Of a stretch of DNA of 42,196 nucleotides, positions 11,173-18,183 are shown in pieces. Position 1 is the first letter of the stretch; each line of letters starts with the position of its first letter. Source of the stretch: Herbidospora galbida (GTDB lineage Bacteria > Actinomycetota > Actinomycetes > Streptosporangiales > Streptosporangiaceae); contig NZ_SZQA01000051.1 of the NCBI RefSeq assembly GCF_005233835.1, positions 1-42,196 on the forward strand, written 5' to 3'. The notes under the pieces are model-generated. The model saw only the letters and a list, made by a program, of their open reading frames with translations. It was not told where the DNA came from and ran no database searches. A program made the translations under genes and the position numbers.

Positions 11173-11185
11173 CCATCAGACGAAG

Positions 11186-11218
11186 AAGACCCGGAGCATC
11201 TCGCTCCGGGTCTTTTTC
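11186..11218 (+). terminator. Rho-independent terminator after qcrB
   Basis: A perfect 12-bp stem, AAGACCCGGAGC (11186-11197) with GCTCCGGGTCTT (11203-11214), closes a 5-nt loop and runs into a T tract. It ends the ctaE-qcrCAB operon. The opposite strand has a weaker TCTTCTTC tract, so it could partly stop the PLA2-like gene coming the other way. Confidence 0.9.
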
Positions 11219-11233
11219 ATTGCCCCGGGTACG

Positions 11234-11980
11234 TCAGCGGCGCACCCACTTCGTGCACGCGATGCCGGCGTCACGCACCTGGCCGCAGGCGCGCACCGTG
11301 GTGAAGCGGGCCCAGATCGGCGCGGTGATCGCCTTGTCGAGGAAACGCTGGATCCTGGTCACCCCGAGCTGGCTCCAGCTCGCGCCGTAGTCGTAGGAAC
11401 GGTCCACCCAGACCGAGTCGCCCGGTGAGCCGTTCGAGATGTGCCCCACGGCGAAGGGCTCCTCGGTGCTGCTGTAGAGCCGGATCGCCACCCCGCCAGT
11501 GGAGACGACGGCGGCGGGGTAGACACGTCCGACCGCGCGCACGGCCTCGTAGAAGACCCGCGCCTCGGCCCGGCAGGCCACGCCCTTGTACGACTGCAGG
11601 CCGCGGTGGCGGTTGCAGATCGAGTTCATGTCGGTTCTGAACTGGTCGTCGATGAGCTTGCGGTTGGCGGAGGTGAAGCGGCTCTGCTTCTTGTAGTTGC
11701 GGTAGCCGAAGTCGTGCCGCCAGCAGGCCTTGAGGAAGTCGAAGACCCCCCTGTCGCCGATGAACGAACAGTTGTCGGTGCTCCAGTCGAGCGGCTCGTT
11801 CGCGGAGGCGCGCCGGTTCACCGCCTCGGCGGCGAAGGTGTCGAGAGGGGTGCTGAACAGCCACCTGTCGGTCTCGGCGACGTCGGTCTTGACGTCCGCG
11901 TGGACCGGCGGGGCGGAGACGACGAGGGTCAGGGCGGCGGCTCCCACGACGTGCAAGAACCGGCGAATCGAACGGGTCAA
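11234..11980 (-). CDS. Secreted phospholipase A2-like protein with C-terminal accessory domain
   Basis: The 248-residue protein has a Sec signal peptide (MTRSIRR, hydrophobic 8-24, cleavage near VHA/D at 28). Residues 35-150 are a prokaryotic phospholipase A2 domain with the catalytic pair His89-Asp90 in CWRHDFGYRN, the partner DNC at 69-71, and cysteines 71, 86, 122 and 136 available for two disulfides. Such enzymes release fatty acid from the sn-2 position of phospholipids outside the cell. Residues 155-248 form an extra domain ending VRACGQVRDAGIACTKWVRR, resembling the C-terminus of the kinase encoded just upstream. The start is TTG 11980 with AGGAG 7 nt before it. It lies 36 nt downstream of that kinase gene, so the two are probably cotranscribed. 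Confidence 0.82.
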   Translation of the reverse strand: MTRSIRRFLHVVGAAALTLVVSAPPVHADVKTDVAETDRWLFSTPLDTFAAEAVNRRASANEPLDWSTDNCSFIGDRGVFDFLKACWRHDFGYRNYKKQSRFTSANRKLIDDQFRTDMNSICNRHRGLQSYKGVACRAEARVFYEAVRAVGRVYPAAVVSTGGVAIRLYSSTEEPFAVGHISNGSPGDSVWVDRSYDYGASWSQLGVTRIQRFLDKAITAPIWARFTTVRACGQVRDAGIACTKWVRR

Positions 11981-12016
11981 GGTCTCTCCTCTGCTTGGCG
12001 GGGATGGGGACGGCCC

Positions 12017-14050
12017 TCAGGGCACCCAGGCCGTGCAGTCCCTCCTTCCGGCGATCTCGGCGCAGGCGCGGACGCGTCCGCCCGCGAAGGGGTGGGACTC
12101 GGTGTGCGAGAGGCCGAGGGCGGACCGCTCCCCGAGCCGTTCGGCCGCGCGTTCCAGCCAGATCAGGGCGGGGCGCCCCGAGCTGGTCACGAGCGCCCAG
12201 GCACAGCCGGGCTCGTCGGTCCAGCGCAGGCTGAACTCGGCCCGCGCTCCGCCGGTCTCGATGGTCACGGGGGTGGAGAACCGTTCCAGACGGCCGTCCG
12301 TCCCGAGGTGTGAGGAGCGCTGGCGGCGGCCCAGGTAGTCGTCACACGGATCGGAGGGCGGCAGCGCGACGGCAAGATGGGGCAGCAGCACCAGCGCGGG
12401 CACCCATGACAGGACCCGGGTACGCGGCTCGGCCACGGCTCCAGGGGCGCGCCAGGCCGTGGCCACCAGATACCGGGCAGTGGCGCCCGTGAGGACGTAC
12501 CAGAGCCCGAGAGGCAGGCCCACCGCCGGGAGGGCCTCGGCGCACATGGCCGAGAACTGGTCGAACATCTCTCCTGACCGGGGCAGGCGGTCGAGGGTCA
12601 GCAGGGAGCCGGCGACGTATCGCACGGTCCCGGCGGCGTTCCCGGCCAGCAGCGCCAGTGCGAGAGCGCCGATCGCGGTGACGAGCAGATCGGTGCGGAC
12701 CGACGGACGGGCGGCGGGCGTGCCGGTCGACGGGCCGAACACGGTCCGCCAGGCGGCCACGCCCGAACAGCCCGCGAAGACCACCGCCCCCGCGATCACA
12801 TGGCCGGTCACCAGGCCCGCGAGCACGCCGGATCCAGCGGCCAGGCCGAAAGCAGCCGGGCGGCCGCTTCTCGGCACTGGCCCGAGTTCCACCGGCGACC
12901 GGCCCCGCGCGCAGACCCGCCGGTCGGCGGCGGCGCCGAGGATGAGTCCGAGGGTCAGCCCGTAGGCCCATCCCGACACGACCGTAGTGACGGCGGCCAC
13001 CGCGACGCCGGCCACGACCGGCTGGAGCAGGGCGGGCACGCGCAGGTGGACTCGCCAGCGCGGATCGTCCTCCGGCGTCTCACGGACGGCCAGACCGGGC
13101 GGCGCGACCCCCCAGAAGATCGCCAGCAGCGAGCACCAGATCCCGGCCGACACCGCCGCCGTCACGTAGGTCGGAGTCCCCGTGGGCAGTGCCAAAACGC
13201 CCAGCACCAGGCACTGGGCCACGGCCGCGAGCCCCAGCCCGGCGACGGTGAGCGCCCGCACCACCGCCCGGGAGCGGCGGCCCGGCCGGGTGAGCCCGCG
13301 CAGCAGGTCCTCGGCGGTGGGCCGGGCGGCCGGGTCCTTGTCCAGTGCCCGGGTGACGAGCGCCAGCAGACCCGGGTCCAGCCCGTCGAGCTGGGGCGGT
13401 TCACCCAAGATGGCGTCGCGCAGTTCCTGCTCCGTGCCGGAGAAAGGCCATCGGCGGGTGCCCGCGTACGCCACCGCCACGCCCCAGGCGAAGACGTCGG
13501 CGGCGAACCCGGCGGCCTCGCCCCGCCACAATTCGGGCGCCATCACGTGGATCGTTCCAGGAGGTACGCCGGGATGGGTCAGCTCGACGGGGTCGTGCAG
13601 GTGGCGAGCCAGGCCGAAGTCGATGACGCGCGCCCCGCCGGGCGCCAAGACGATGTTGTCCGGCTTGAGGTCGCGGTGCACGATCCCGGCCCGATGGAAC
13701 TCCACGAGCCCCCGCAGCACGTCTGTGGCGACCTGCCGCAGTCTCTGCGGCGGCAGGGGGGCGGCGTCGGCCAGCGTCGGTCCCGGCAGGTACTCGGTGA
13801 CCAGGTAGGGGCGCGCGGCGGTCGCGTCGGCGTCGACCAGGGCCGGGGTCGACGGGCTCCGCATCCGCCGTGCCATCTCTATCTCACGGGCGAACCGCAG
13901 CCGAATCGCGGGATGGCCGGCCAGTTCCGCCCGGATGACCTTGACCACGACCGGCCGCCCGCCGGGTGCGGCGGCCAGGTAGGCCACGCCCATCCCGCCT
14001 TCGCCGAGGCGCCGTTCGAGCAGGTAGGGCCCGATCGTCTCGGGGGTCAC
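12017..14050 (-). CDS. Polytopic Ser/Thr protein kinase with outer C-terminal domain
   Basis: The 677-residue protein begins with a complete kinase domain (7-255): glycine loop GEGGMG, Lys37, HRDLKPDN (Asp127, Lys129, Asn132), DFG (144-146) and APE (171-173). It is followed by roughly nine hydrophobic segments between 264 and 563. That odd number would place the last 110 residues outside, where four cysteines (569, 616, 663, 672) could form disulfides. This outer domain resembles the C-terminal domain of the next gene, the PLA2-like protein. GTG 14050 overlaps the stop of the TIR-kinase gene (GTGA), which suggests coupled translation; an in-frame GTG at 14089 would add 13 Pro-rich residues. 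It probably senses an extracytoplasmic signal and phosphorylates cytoplasmic targets. Confidence 0.88.
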   Translation of the reverse strand: MTPETIGPYLLERRLGEGGMGVAYLAAAPGGRPVVVKVIRAELAGHPAIRLRFAREIEMARRMRSPSTPALVDADATAARPYLVTEYLPGPTLADAAPLPPQRLRQVATDVLRGLVEFHRAGIVHRDLKPDNIVLAPGGARVIDFGLARHLHDPVELTHPGVPPGTIHVMAPELWRGEAAGFAADVFAWGVAVAYAGTRRWPFSGTEQELRDAILGEPPQLDGLDPGLLALVTRALDKDPAARPTAEDLLRGLTRPGRRSRAVVRALTVAGLGLAAVAQCLVLGVLALPTGTPTYVTAAVSAGIWCSLLAIFWGVAPPGLAVRETPEDDPRWRVHLRVPALLQPVVAGVAVAAVTTVVSGWAYGLTLGLILGAAADRRVCARGRSPVELGPVPRSGRPAAFGLAAGSGVLAGLVTGHVIAGAVVFAGCSGVAAWRTVFGPSTGTPAARPSVRTDLLVTAIGALALALLAGNAAGTVRYVAGSLLTLDRLPRSGEMFDQFSAMCAEALPAVGLPLGLWYVLTGATARYLVATAWRAPGAVAEPRTRVLSWVPALVLLPHLAVALPPSDPCDDYLGRRQRSSHLGTDGRLERFSTPVTIETGGARAEFSLRWTDEPGCAWALVTSSGRPALIWLERAAERLGERSALGLSHTESHPFAGGRVRACAEIAGRRDCTAWVP

Positions 14051-16764
14051 CGGACGGGCCGGAGGAGGGACGGGAACAGGCGGAACCACTCGTCCTCCGT
14101 CGGCGGCTCGAGTCGGTCTGCCGCCCGTTCCGGGTCGGTGGCCCAGAGGCCCAGGTCCCCGTTCTCGGCCCCAGCCGCGAGGAAGGCTCCGTCAGGGCTG
14201 AACGCGGTGGCCCAGACCTTGTCGGCCAGCCCGGGCAACGGGGTGGAGACCGTGGTGTCGGCGCGGTCCCACAACCGCACTGTCGGGCCTCGCGGGTCTT
14301 CGTTGCCGGTGGCCAACCGGGTGCCGTCGGGGCTGAGCGCGACGGCGAGGGTGGCGAAGCCGCTGTGGCCGGGGATCACGCTGGCGCGGCCCAGCCCGTC
14401 GTCTCCGTCGCGGAGCCGAAGGACCCGCACGTCGCTGTTCCCGCCCTGGGCGACCGGGGCGCTCACGACGAACACGACGCGGTCGTCGGCCGGGTCGGTG
14501 GCCACGTGGCCGATGCCGGCGAAGGCGTTGGCGCTCATGTCGAGCTGCTGGCGAACCGGGGCCGGGTCGGGCCGGTCGGCGTCGAGGCCGTCGAGGCTCC
14601 AGAGTTTGACCGACGATCCGGTGCTGGAGTCTCCGGCGGTGACGACCATCCGGTCTCCGGCGCAGAAGTCCATCCCCCACACCCACTTGTTGTCCACGGC
14701 CCGATCTGCGTGGTCGAGGACCCTGAGCGGGAGCGTGGGGTCGACCGGGTTCCAGATCCGCACGGTCCCGTCGACACTGGAGGAGGCGAGCAGCCCGCCG
14801 GTCGGGCCGAAGCGGACCCGCAGCACCTCCTGTCCCGGCGGGTGCGCGGGGAAGGTCCGCCGCCGCCACCTCCCAGACCGGGGGTCGCCGCGCTCGGGCC
14901 GGGCGATGGTGACCAGGCCCTCGACGTCACCGAAGGCCACCAGGCCGGCCGGCCCGAAGGCGACGCAGAGCACGGAGGAGACGTTCCGCAGCGGCTCGGC
15001 CGCCTGCCGGGCGTGGTTGTCGCGCGGATCCCAGAGCCGGACGGCGCCGTCGTACCCGGCGCTGGCCAGCAGCCCCGACGACGGGTCGAAGGCTAGCCCC
15101 TTCACCGGTCCGCTGTGCCGGGAGAGCCGGGTCATCTCGGTATGCCGAAGCACGTTCGCCCGGGTGCGCGGCGTCGACCGGATCAGATAGGCGGCCAGGT
15201 CGAGCCGCGCTGCGAGGTCGGGGTCCCGGCTCCGGAGGCGGTCTGCGGTCACGGCCACCACCTCGGCCCGGGCGGCCGGATCACGCGGCGGCGCGGCCGG
15301 GCCGGCAGCGGTGTCGCGGGTCAGCCCGGCATTGGCGGCCATCGCGAGGACCGCGCCGCCGGAGGTGAAGAGGGCCCGGCGGCCGAACCTCGGCGCGGAG
15401 ACCGGCCGGGCGGCCGGGGCCTCCGTCAGGCGCCCGAGCAGGTCGGCGACCGTCGGCCGAGAGGCGGGTTCCCGGTGCAGGGCCGCCCGCACCGCGCCCC
15501 GCACCGGTTGGGCGAGGCCGGTCAGGCCGGGGGCGGCACCGAGGATCCGGCCGCGGACCTCGTCCTCCGTGGCGCCGGGGAACGGCCAGCGGCGGGTGCC
15601 GGCGTAGGTGACCAGGCACCCCCAGGCGAACACGTCGGCCGCCGTGGTGACGACGGAGTTCCGCCAGAGTTCCGGGGCCATCACGTTGGCGGTGCCCTCG
15701 GCCCGGGGACCGCGCGGCCGGTCGCCGTCAGGCCGGGCCGCGCCGAAGTCGATCAGGCGCGGCCCGCTGGCGGACAGGATCACGTTGCCGGGCGCCACGT
15801 CGCCGTGCACGATCCCGGCCCGGTGGACATCGGCGAGCACGCCCAGCAGATGTACGGCGAACTGGTGCAGGCCGGTCGCGGTGAACGGCCCCCGCAGGGC
15901 GACCCGCTCGGCCAGGGTCGTCCCGTCGGCGTACTCGGTGGCCAGGTAAGGAGGCGCGGAGCCGGCGCCCAGCACGGCGGGCACGTGCACGCTGCGGACC
16001 GCCCGGGTGTGCCGGGCCTCCCGGGCGAGGCGTTCGGGCGACCCGGACGTCTTGACCGCCGCCGTCCGGCCCTTGTCGTCCTCTCCGAGGTAGACGGTGC
16101 TGAGCAGCCCGGCGCCGAGGCGGTAGCGCAGCGTGTAGGGCCCGATGACGGTGGGGTCGTGCTCGGTCAGCGGCGCGACCCGGGTCCCGCCGCTGCGGGC
16201 CAGGAACGCCGCAGAGGTGAGGGTCGACCCACCGGGCCCGGGGAAGCTCGGGGGCGGGGTGGGCGGGTGGAGCCCGGGCACGGACACCCGTGTGGGCAAG
16301 ACCCCCGGAAAGGCCGGGCTCTGTGACGGTTTGGCCCGCCCGGTCACGACGTGTTCGATCGCCCCCAGGAGCCGGTTCCGGGCCGCGCCCTCGGTCAGGC
16401 CGACCAGGTCGACCCAGACGACCTGCCGCAGCAGCGGCGACAGCTCGCAGTCGGCGACGCGGATCGGCACCAGTTTGCGGTCGGTTCCGGAGGAGTCGGC
16501 CTGCAGTGCGCCGTGCCATTCCATCTGGCCCCAGCCGGAACGCATATAAGCCTCCGAGCAGACGGCTATGGTGCGGCGGGACTTCGCCATTCCCAGGTCC
16601 ATGCTCGCCATCCAGTGAGCCCCGGGACCGAAGTCCCATTCCTGGATGAGAACCCGATATTCGGCCAGTTCGAGCTGCCAGGCGATCCACACCGCCCAGT
16701 CCTTGTCGACGGCCGTGTAGGAAATGAAGAAATCCCAGGTGGCCGTCTCCGCCCCCGATGACAT
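14047..16764 (-). CDS. TIR domain-Ser/Thr kinase-WD40 fusion protein
   Basis: The 905-residue protein has three parts. Residues 9-140 are a TIR_2-type domain (WDFFISYTAVDKDWA) with W78-G-Q-M-E82, where Glu82 corresponds to the catalytic glutamate of NAD-cleaving TIR domains such as SARM1. A Pro-rich linker (145-205) follows. Residues 207-447 are a kinase domain with Lys238, DFG (339-341) and APE, but HRDLKPEN is replaced by HGDVAPGN: Arg becomes Gly and the catalytic-loop Lys becomes Ala, while Asp322 and Asn327 stay. Residues 545-880 form about five to six WD40-like repeats (ASAGYDGAVRLWD, SSSVDGTVRIWN, AAGAENGDLGLWA). A weak hydrophobic stretch near 463-480 may touch the membrane. ATG 16764 fits a leaderless promoter; the kinase gene downstream overlaps it. 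Confidence 0.9.
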   Translation of the reverse strand: MSSGAETATWDFFISYTAVDKDWAVWIAWQLELAEYRVLIQEWDFGPGAHWMASMDLGMAKSRRTIAVCSEAYMRSGWGQMEWHGALQADSSGTDRKLVPIRVADCELSPLLRQVVWVDLVGLTEGAARNRLLGAIEHVVTGRAKPSQSPAFPGVLPTRVSVPGLHPPTPPPSFPGPGGSTLTSAAFLARSGGTRVAPLTEHDPTVIGPYTLRYRLGAGLLSTVYLGEDDKGRTAAVKTSGSPERLAREARHTRAVRSVHVPAVLGAGSAPPYLATEYADGTTLAERVALRGPFTATGLHQFAVHLLGVLADVHRAGIVHGDVAPGNVILSASGPRLIDFGAARPDGDRPRGPRAEGTANVMAPELWRNSVVTTAADVFAWGCLVTYAGTRRWPFPGATEDEVRGRILGAAPGLTGLAQPVRGAVRAALHREPASRPTVADLLGRLTEAPAARPVSAPRFGRRALFTSGGAVLAMAANAGLTRDTAAGPAAPPRDPAARAEVVAVTADRLRSRDPDLAARLDLAAYLIRSTPRTRANVLRHTEMTRLSRHSGPVKGLAFDPSSGLLASAGYDGAVRLWDPRDNHARQAAEPLRNVSSVLCVAFGPAGLVAFGDVEGLVTIARPERGDPRSGRWRRRTFPAHPPGQEVLRVRFGPTGGLLASSSVDGTVRIWNPVDPTLPLRVLDHADRAVDNKWVWGMDFCAGDRMVVTAGDSSTGSSVKLWSLDGLDADRPDPAPVRQQLDMSANAFAGIGHVATDPADDRVVFVVSAPVAQGGNSDVRVLRLRDGDDGLGRASVIPGHSGFATLAVALSPDGTRLATGNEDPRGPTVRLWDRADTTVSTPLPGLADKVWATAFSPDGAFLAAGAENGDLGLWATDPERAADRLEPPTEDEWFRLFPSLLRPVR

Positions 16765-16771
16765 GGCCGGG

Positions 16772-16777
16772 AGTCTA
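16772..16777 (-). promoter_or_regulatory. Candidate -10 box, leaderless TIR-kinase gene
   Basis: On the minus strand TAGACT ends 7 nt before ATG 16764, which selects this start over GTG/ATG codons further upstream. It lies beside a perfect palindrome at 16783-16798. Confidence 0.45.
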
Positions 16778-16782
16778 CGCCA

Positions 16783-16798
16783 CAATTAACGCTAATTG
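16783..16798. promoter_or_regulatory. Palindrome in the TIR-kinase promoter
   Basis: CAATTA (16783-16788) and TAATTG (16793-16798) form a perfect inverted repeat around ACGC. It overlaps the place where the -35 box of the TIR-kinase promoter would be and lies in the most AT-rich stretch of the window (about 16780-16866), so a repressor operator is plausible. Confidence 0.45.
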
Positions 16799-16866: not shown

Positions 16867-18120
16867 TTAACGGGGAGCCGTGTGACCAATGCGAAAGAGG
16901 TTTCCCGGATCGACGTTTCTCCTGATCTCGGCCAGCCGCCGCCGTGTCGCCTCCGGCCAGGCCCGCCCGGTCGTCGTCAGGTCCGAGCCGTGCATGTTGA
17001 TCAGCGACCCGCCCGTCGACCACGGCGCCAGCGCCCCCACGACCGCCCCGGGATCGCTCCCCGGCAGCCCGATCGCCAGCACGTTGAACGCCCCGTCCCG
17101 CCCGCCGACCGCGTTCGGTTCCTTCGGCTCCCGCCCCAGCGCCCCGCCCAGGTGCCGGATCTCCACCACCGGGATCGGCAGCTCGACCGAGGGCCCGGCG
17201 ACCGCCAGCAGGGCCTCCACCGTCTCCGGCGTCAGCTCGCGCAGCAGAGTGCTGCGTTCGACGGCCGGCATCGGGTCGGTCGGGTCGTTGTGGACGCGGT
17301 CGAGCTGCGTGTACGGCAGCTCCCCCACCCCGCCGAGCACCGGCTCGGCCACCCCGAGCATCGGGGCCAGGAGAGCCTCCTGGGGCTCCACCGAAGCCAC
17401 CCGCAGGTGGGCCACGAACTGCCCGCGCAGCGGCGGGGGCAGCTGGGGCAGCGGCGGCAGGCGCAGGAAGGCGAGCGAGGTGGTCAGCGTCTCGGGCAGG
17501 CCCGGCGCCCAGCGCTGGTAGGCCCGCAGCACGGCCGGGGCGTCGGCGGCGGCGTAGTAGAAGCCGCCGCCCCACACGGTGGCCAGCGGGAACAGGTCGA
17601 CCGTCAGCGAGGTCACCACGCCGAAGCCGCTCTTGCCGCCGCGCAGCGCCCAGAACAGGTCGGGCTCGCTGCCGGGGTCGGCGATCCTGACCGCGCCGTC
17701 GGGGGTCACGACGGTCAGCGACCGGACGTGGTCGGCCGCGAAGCCGTAGGAGCGGGCCAGCGGGCCGATGCCGCCGCCCAGGGTGAAGCCGACGGCGCCG
17801 ACCCCGGAAGCCGAGCCGCACAGGGGCGCGAGCCCGAAGGGGGCCGCCGCCCGGACGACCTCGGCCCACGTGCAGCCGGCGCCGATGGTCGCGGTGCGCT
17901 CCTCGGGGTCGATCGACAGGGAGCGCATCCGGGAGGTGAGGATCAGGACCGCGCCGTCGGCGGCCTGGACGGCTCCGTGGCCGGTCGCCTGGACGGCCAC
18001 GGGCAGGTCGCGGGCGGCCGCGTGGGCGAGGGCCTCCGCGACGTCGGCGGCGGTCTCCGCCTCGGCCACGAGGGCGGGGTGGTGGCGGACCGCGAGGTTG
18101 AATCTGGAGATCTCGTTCAT
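16867..18120 (-). CDS. FAD-binding (BBE/PCMH-type) oxidoreductase
   Basis: The 417-residue protein has a PCMH-type FAD domain in its first half: the VAVQATGHGAV segment, whose His matches the covalent flavin-linking His of the family, and the GFTLGGGIGPLARSYGFAADH pyrophosphate loop region. The C-terminus RRNVDPGNLFRIGH is the berberine-bridge-enzyme (BBE) motif. Such enzymes oxidise sugars, alkaloids or polyketide intermediates with oxygen. It lacks a signal peptide. The real start is ATG 18120; the longer frame upstream is antisense to the regulator gene. It is divergent from a large SARP-type regulator with an 81-nt shared promoter region, so it is probably that regulator's target. Confidence 0.9.
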   Translation of the reverse strand: MNEISRFNLAVRHHPALVAEAETAADVAEALAHAAARDLPVAVQATGHGAVQAADGAVLILTSRMRSLSIDPEERTATIGAGCTWAEVVRAAAPFGLAPLCGSASGVGAVGFTLGGGIGPLARSYGFAADHVRSLTVVTPDGAVRIADPGSEPDLFWALRGGKSGFGVVTSLTVDLFPLATVWGGGFYYAAADAPAVLRAYQRWAPGLPETLTTSLAFLRLPPLPQLPPPLRGQFVAHLRVASVEPQEALLAPMLGVAEPVLGGVGELPYTQLDRVHNDPTDPMPAVERSTLLRELTPETVEALLAVAGPSVELPIPVVEIRHLGGALGREPKEPNAVGGRDGAFNVLAIGLPGSDPGAVVGALAPWSTGGSLINMHGSDLTTTGRAWPEATRRRLAEIRRNVDPGNLFRIGHTAPR

Positions 18121-18141
18121 GGGAGAGGTTGTCCCATGGTG

Positions 18142-18183
18142 TCCTCGTATGCGGCTGAGGCGGCATCCTAGTGTGGTCCTAGT
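18142..18183. promoter_or_regulatory. SARP-like heptamer direct repeats
   Basis: TCCTAGT occurs at 18166-18172 and again at 18177-18183, an exact 11-bp period with a 4-bp spacer, which is the classic arrangement of SARP-family binding sites. A third, imperfect copy, TCCTCGT, lies at 18142-18148. The repeats sit between the oxidoreductase and the SARP-type regulator, and TAGGAT on the minus strand (18165-18170) could be the oxidoreductase -10 box. Autoregulation and control of the oxidoreductase by the neighbouring regulator is the simplest reading. Confidence 0.5.

Follow-up and report, generated by a model that had tools for sequence, protein, structure and literature searches.

A rare co-inherited cassette of Herbidospora combining a TIR-kinase-WD40 protein, a membrane kinase and a predicted secreted phospholipase A2

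TIR domains, protein kinases and propellers are found among the parts of bacterial conflict systems (PMC8195603, PMC10907252). In multicellular bacteria, NTP-dependent conflict systems bring together TIR domains, kinases and beta-propellers; their kinases are related to propeller-fused ones, and most of them have disrupted catalytic residues (Kaur et al., 2020, PMC7159879). Kinase-WD40 proteins have been described (PMC6113231, PMC5587647) and are common in prokaryotes (PMC5587647). PkwA-type proteins of the actinomycete Thermomonospora curvata join a Hanks-type kinase to a WD40 propeller, as does one of the proteins treated here. To our knowledge, no TIR, membrane-kinase or phospholipase A2 (PLA2) partner of PkwA-type proteins is known. 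We analyzed a window of 42,196 nucleotides (the whole stretch of DNA under study) from the 8.3 Mb genome of Herbidospora galbida, in which genes encoding a TIR-kinase-WD40 protein (gene 1), a polytopic kinase (gene 2) and a predicted secreted PLA2 (gene 3) follow each other. The trio represents a real, rare and co-inherited cassette of known signaling and conflict parts in a new combination. No title or abstract describing it was found in the open-access literature searched, in agreement with the first-pass annotation of this DNA, which knew of no described system with exactly these three genes.

All three genes are encoded on the minus strand, gene 1 at 16764-14047, gene 2 at 14050-12017 and gene 3 at 11980-11234. 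Genes 1 and 2 overlap by four nucleotides (GTGA, 14050-14047), the GTG start of gene 2 lying inside the stop of gene 1, and a gap of 36 nucleotides (12016-11981) separates genes 2 and 3; coordinates, order, strand, overlap and gap are thus as first annotated. An AGGAG-like site precedes the TTG start of gene 3 at 11980. Between gene 3 and the convergent qcrB lies a hairpin and possible terminator (11180-11226, minus strand; -27.6 kcal/mol, z -5.9), which none of 200 shuffled sequences equaled in stability. At the other end a TAGACT box (16772-16777, minus strand), read by eye as a possible leaderless promoter, is situated 7 nucleotides before the ATG at 16764. Because this box is kept in all seven Herbidospora loci compared, one of which (G003) has GTG as the start codon there, the ATG at 16764 is most likely the start of gene 1, and not the upstream TTG at 16785 with which the mechanically derived open reading frame begins. 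A scan for sigma-70 and simple consensus elements listed neither a minus-strand promoter, the TAGACT box included, nor the hairpin after gene 3. The overlap, the short gap and the hairpin argue for a unit, and the three genes would be read from one transcript.

The distribution of the trio was searched in 341 genomes of the family Streptosporangiaceae and in a class sample of 394 genomes that includes some of the same family genomes, with the four to seven best candidates scored per genome. The full trio was present in three of the 341 family genomes: at the same locus in the window's genome and in Herbidospora mongoliensis, and with different flanks in Planomonospora sp. ID82291. The part of gene 1 comprising TIR and kinase was covered in the same three genomes (best four candidates per genome); among the matches listed, the other matches to this profile start at profile position 127 at least, i.e., past the TIR domain. 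The C-terminal half of gene 2 was likewise full-length in these three, and three further genomes yielded partial weak matches (best five candidates per genome). Any PLA2 match was obtained in 131 of the 341 genomes, near-full-length two-domain PLA2 at E <1e-100 in eight, namely seven Herbidospora and the Planomonospora, and each pair of TIR-kinase gene and gene 2 end adjoins such a two-domain PLA2. A pattern-based contig scan, which may omit the window's own genome, returned the two loci of H. mongoliensis and Planomonospora sp. ID82291. In the class sample two TIR-kinase and two PLA2 matches (E up to 1e-44) were all already known, and no further trio appeared. From the plasmid collection 11 records matched the PLA2 query and 232 the TIR-kinase query, none of them covering 80% of the query. 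Adjacency across genera, proposed earlier as a check, is therefore seen in two genera with different surroundings, while wide conservation is not. Rarity or confinement to close strains had been named as evidence against a functional unit; the genes are indeed rarely together, and they are not restricted to close strains.

Comparison of the seven Herbidospora genomes (the window's genome, H. mongoliensis and five others, G001 to G005; eight loci together with the Planomonospora) revealed two states of the locus. PLA2 occupies the same spot in all seven, and the kinase pair is present only in the window's genome and H. mongoliensis. The first-pass annotation had described the block as interrupting a respiratory gene order between qcrB and a SARP-type regulator. 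Only the kinase pair is variable here, and PLA2 constitutes no interruption; moreover, the TIR gene is separated from the SARP regulator by a gene encoding a FAD-linked oxidase (16867-18183, minus strand; Pfam scan). In all five lone loci similarity to the window spans the promoter region and continues into the TIR gene, of which the first 30-34 nucleotides are covered (E 8e-8 to 2e-20). Two of them contain a further collinear TIR remnant: in G001, among the matches listed, 56 bp with 80% identity (E 2e-7 against H. mongoliensis, 0.019 against the window) and in G004 38 bp with 79% identity (E 3e-4 against the window, 0.013 against H. mongoliensis). No significant further remnant was detected at the locus in G002, G003 and G005 by comparison with the window and H. 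mongoliensis. Since the lone loci retain the start of the TIR gene, and two of them a further remnant of it, loss of the kinase pair is likelier than late gain, and the kinases were probably lost there while PLA2 was kept. Among the eight loci PLA2 occurs without kinases five times and kinases without PLA2 never, which suggests that the kinases need PLA2 whereas PLA2 can do without them.

These two states could also have arisen without any functional unit, if the kinase pair had landed by chance beside a resident PLA2 and had later been deleted in some species. We consider this improbable. PLA2 does persist alone in five of seven Herbidospora, and G005 carries another insertion there, which suggests that the spot may be insertion-prone; an identical three-gene order is nevertheless found at another place in Planomonospora, the PLA2s of the trios group together across the genus border, and the synonymous divergence of the three genes matches, as described below. 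The insertion in G005 (L046:2182-8089, between qcrB and PLA2) encodes an AraC-type regulator and a protein of 1615 amino acids that has Ig-like and CBM96 domains and, at its C-terminus, a nuclease domain of the NucA/NucB type.

In the PLA2 tree the three trio members stand apart from the five lone PLA2s (support 99/99). A tree of three flanking proteins, of which H. mongoliensis lacks one and has another partial and G005 has one partial, grouped the window's genome with G002 and G004 (86) and G003 with H. mongoliensis (72). Both groupings were rejected for PLA2 (p-AU 1.7e-5 and 3.4e-4) in approximately unbiased (AU) tests, for which the clades had been picked after viewing both trees. The trees are unrooted; if the Planomonospora serves as outgroup, what is seen is one clade of lone PLA2s that cuts across the flanking-gene tree. 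Synonymous divergence (dS) between the window's genome and H. mongoliensis amounts to 0.42 for PLA2, 0.45 for gene 1 and 0.46 for gene 2 versus 0.16 for qcrB, and between the window's genome and the Planomonospora to 0.77, 0.77 and 1.00 for PLA2, gene 1 and gene 2. The lone pair G002 and G004 shows the same tendency, with 0.36 for PLA2, 0.11 for the SARP gene and 0.09 for qcrB. The histories of the block and of the lone PLA2 allele thus differ from those of their flanks, which fits allele exchange. The comparison supports inheritance of the trio as one block, which was probably also exchanged as one. The PLA2 tree follows kinase presence and not the flanking-gene tree, in two genera with different flanks, and to this extent the functional unit suggested at first is borne out as co-inheritance.

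The ratio of nonsynonymous to synonymous divergence (dN/dS) is 0.38-0.88 across all 28 PLA2 pairs and 0.11-0.31 across the qcrB and SARP pairs. Because dN/dS is below 1 and internal stops are absent, the lone PLA2 genes are probably functional, though fast-evolving. Within PLA2, the C-terminal domain is more divergent than the catalytic domain in the trio pairs (ratios 2.50, 1.44 and 1.28) and mostly less divergent in the lone pairs, of which there are ten (0.59-1.07); for mixed pairs the ratios are 0.98-1.43. These pairs are few and not independent. A Fisher test on the domains (p 0.0086) is given no weight here, since it was based on a single hand-picked pair and on a count of 35 for which the table has 36.

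Gene 1 encodes 905 amino acids with a TIR domain (residues ~12-133; TIR_2 6e-33, 114.4 bits, cut-off 28), a Hanks-type kinase (~211-443; Pkinase 1.7e-22, 80.5 bits) and WD40 repeats from residue ~545 in four stretches recognized by Pfam. E82, Lys238, D322, N327 and D339 are invariant in the three orthologs, and E82 aligns with the glutamate of the solved bacterial TIRs 3h16 and 7uxr. We take this position to be the active-site glutamate of NAD-cleaving TIRs, and the TIR domain of gene 1 probably cleaves NAD. In the kinase, Lys, Asn and the Asp of the DFG motif are kept in place, this motif reading DLG in the Planomonospora. Among 52 kinase-domain matches in the window's genome, the kinase nearest to that of gene 1 is that of gene 2 (50%, the next 43%), which is at most suggestive of a local duplication. 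TIR domains were also noted elsewhere, one in a frame of 1910 amino acids of the window's genome (L001, G000:C77:2315-2650), with similar TIR scores in 1911-1914-aa frames of G001, G002, G004 and G005. Less than 0.9 kb of the window's genome at G000:C51:206236-207070 holds two TIR_2 matches, of which the second belongs to a frame of 1089 amino acids, and similar pairs occur in G002:C9 and, in H. mongoliensis, in G006:C22.

With so many kinases in the genome, and with kinase-WD40 proteins common in prokaryotes (see above), the trio might be an ordinary actinobacterial kinase signaling cluster which regulates secretion or expression of a PLA2 exoenzyme, its TIR domain being a protein-contact module with neither an NAD signal nor a role in conflict. 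In favor of such a cluster, PLA2 is constant at the locus in all seven Herbidospora and the presence of the kinases varies, and no defence gene was recognized among the neighbors scanned. We rate this explanation as rather unlikely, however, given that the TIR domain retains the glutamate aligned with bacterial TIRs and that the history of the block is unlike that of its flanks, which is atypical of housekeeping regulation.

Gene 2 encodes 677 amino acids with a Hanks-type kinase (Pkinase 7.9e-36, 124.2 bits) whose motifs are complete (HRDLKPDN and IDFG), followed by six predicted membrane segments, or seven in the ortholog of H. mongoliensis, by simple hydropathy. Its C-terminal domain of ~110 residues (12020-12349, minus strand) contains four cysteines which are invariant among the orthologs. 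The segment count leaves the side of the membrane unsettled, and owing to the cysteines and to the secreted carriers of related domains, this end is probably located outside the cell. Gene 3 ends in a domain of ~90 residues (11237-11518, minus strand) which recurs in the family without a PLA2 domain, inside or at the end of other frames. One of these carrier domains matches Pfam DUF2690 (PF10901) above the cut-off (2.1e-5), another below it (0.0042); Pfam recognized no family in the end domains of the window's genes 2 and 3 or of the Planomonospora kinase. Of the carriers, L026, L027 and L050 were read, and by our reading they are GH76-like and NlpC-like, supported by one annotated GH76 match in a plasmid record. 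The domain family used for hhalign was composed of the eight PLA2 end domains and four carrier domains of other secreted-type proteins. PLA2 end domains and carrier domains matched each other with 99.6%, and the gene 2 domain matched the combined set with 96.2% (E 2.4e-9) and the four carriers with 96.7%, compared with at most 1.2% for 30 column-shuffled profiles and at most 0.8% for 52 decoys, which were real profiles of flanking genes. The domain claim rests on these controls and not on the match that the kinase-2 profile gave in G321 to the C-terminal domain (E 2e-4), which taken alone is at noise level because matches in G143 and G162 (E 6e-4 and 9e-4) sit in unrelated genes. The profiles indicate that both end domains are DUF2690-like relatives, linked transitively through the carriers; new here are the relation of the PLA2 C-terminal domain to DUF2690 and the match of the gene 2 end to that family. 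A further relative of the PLA2 C-terminal domain was noted in a protein of 157 amino acids with a signal-like start and no Pfam match (L128:1438-1911).

Gene 3 encodes 248 amino acids with a signal-like N-terminus (simple hydropathy) and the prokaryotic PLA2 domain PF09056 at residues 37-151 (1.4e-33, 116.2 bits, cut-off 29.4). H89, D90 and D111 are invariant in the eight aligned PLA2s, and presumably these His/Asp residues are the catalytic ones of PF09056. It is predicted to be a secreted, phospholipid-cleaving enzyme which shares its catalytic domain with the solved secreted PF09056 PLA2s (4aup, 7ygk, 8k1w, 1faz) and differs from them by the added DUF2690-like C-terminal domain. Its PLA2 domain is nearer to 4aup, "phospholipase A2 group XIII" (E 3.4e-34), than to 1faz (1.6e-16), presumably a truffle-fungus and a Streptomyces enzyme, respectively, and exchange of PLA2 between fungi and actinomycetes is possible. 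PLA2 is counted among polymorphic-toxin domains and has relatives in fungi that are secreted (PMC3482391). In other family genomes, open frames of 1440-1764 amino acids with a PLA2-domain match (G183:C26:19112, G207:C1:3344705 and G188:C72:47535) perhaps encode polymorphic toxins.

In both Herbidospora and Planomonospora, the neighboring genes scanned with Pfam belong to respiration, regulation, the cell wall and housekeeping. In the Planomonospora they encode a SARP regulator with an NB-ARC domain, Lsr2, VanY, MscL, a nucleoside phosphorylase family protein and two proteins without match. The expectation of a defence island expressed in the first-pass annotation found no backing here, as Pfam recognized no defence gene among the neighbors scanned, to which PADLOC was not applied. 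The trio shares TIR, kinase and propeller parts with the systems of Kaur et al., but its kinases keep most motifs and no NTPase core was recognized: no MoxR-vWA was present among the neighbors scanned, which were not all of the neighbors, and NTPase domains near the trio occur only within SARP regulators (AAA_16 in the window, NB-ARC in Planomonospora). Membership in the MADS or PD-T4-6 kinase defence systems was rejected. PADLOC matches, among those listed, are confined to the kinase domain with no full-length match, and MAD6 scores of 68.8 and 112 bits compare with a full-length NCBIfam cut-off of 460. The kinase domain is what the trio shares with PD-T4-6 and MAD6.

An abortive anti-phage defence, in which gene 2 or the WD40 propeller would sense infection, the TIR domain deplete NAD and PLA2 serve as an accessory effector, is quite unlikely on these grounds. 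A TIR domain, a kinase and a propeller are characteristic components of bacterial conflict systems (PMC7159879, PMC8195603), and the patchy presence of the trio points the same way. Both the missing defence genes among the neighbors scanned and the restriction of defence-model matches to kinase domains speak against it, and the signal-like N-terminus of PLA2 would be odd for an intracellular suicide effector.

The explanation we favor, tentatively, is a single co-inherited cassette in which gene 2 senses the surface and controls a TIR switch in gene 1, with the secreted PLA2 acting on the same surface. The membrane kinase would perceive a cell-surface signal through its DUF2690-like end domain and activate gene 1, either by phosphorylating it or via the propeller; the kinase and WD40 propeller of gene 1 would control the TIR domain and its probable NAD cleavage; and PLA2, with its related C-terminal domain, would act on the surface or target watched by gene 2, possibly by way of a shared ligand. 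The occurrence of the trio in two genera in unlike surroundings, the split in the PLA2 tree, the similar dS of the three genes, the related end domains of genes 2 and 3 and the intact key residues argue for such a unit. Several observations weigh against it. Only three trios are known, and the kinase of gene 1 has HGD in place of HRD in all three orthologs. PLA2 persists without kinases in five of seven Herbidospora, with dN/dS <1 among them, and therefore has no need of the kinases. The excess in dS may in part reflect codon bias in the flanking genes. The gene 2 end domain compared with the PLA2 domains alone gave a weak 22.8% in hhalign, and the A7 profile, which detected PLA2 and another three sites in the window's own genome, missed gene 2. 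The cassette may act in conflicts between its host and other microbes, and in this regard the lack of recognized defence genes among the neighbors scanned has to be added. From sequence, defence, competition and regulation of an exoenzyme are indistinguishable.

A more far-reaching version, which we regard as doubtful, is a two-sided recognition cassette. PLA2 and gene 2 would recognize the same surface via their related outer domains and relay to an NAD-depleting TIR switch, and the alleles of the locus, full trio or PLA2 with kinase remnants, would be exchanged between species independently of the flanks, as in self/non-self or competition systems. If the favored explanation is true, a lipid-attacking enzyme on the outside, a receptor kinase in the membrane and a TIR effector inside the cell are joined in one small bacterial cassette, in a layout which recalls the receptor-kinase and TIR signaling of eukaryotic immunity. 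Close relatives carrying either the full trio or PLA2 alone at one locus represent a natural test of what the kinases contribute.

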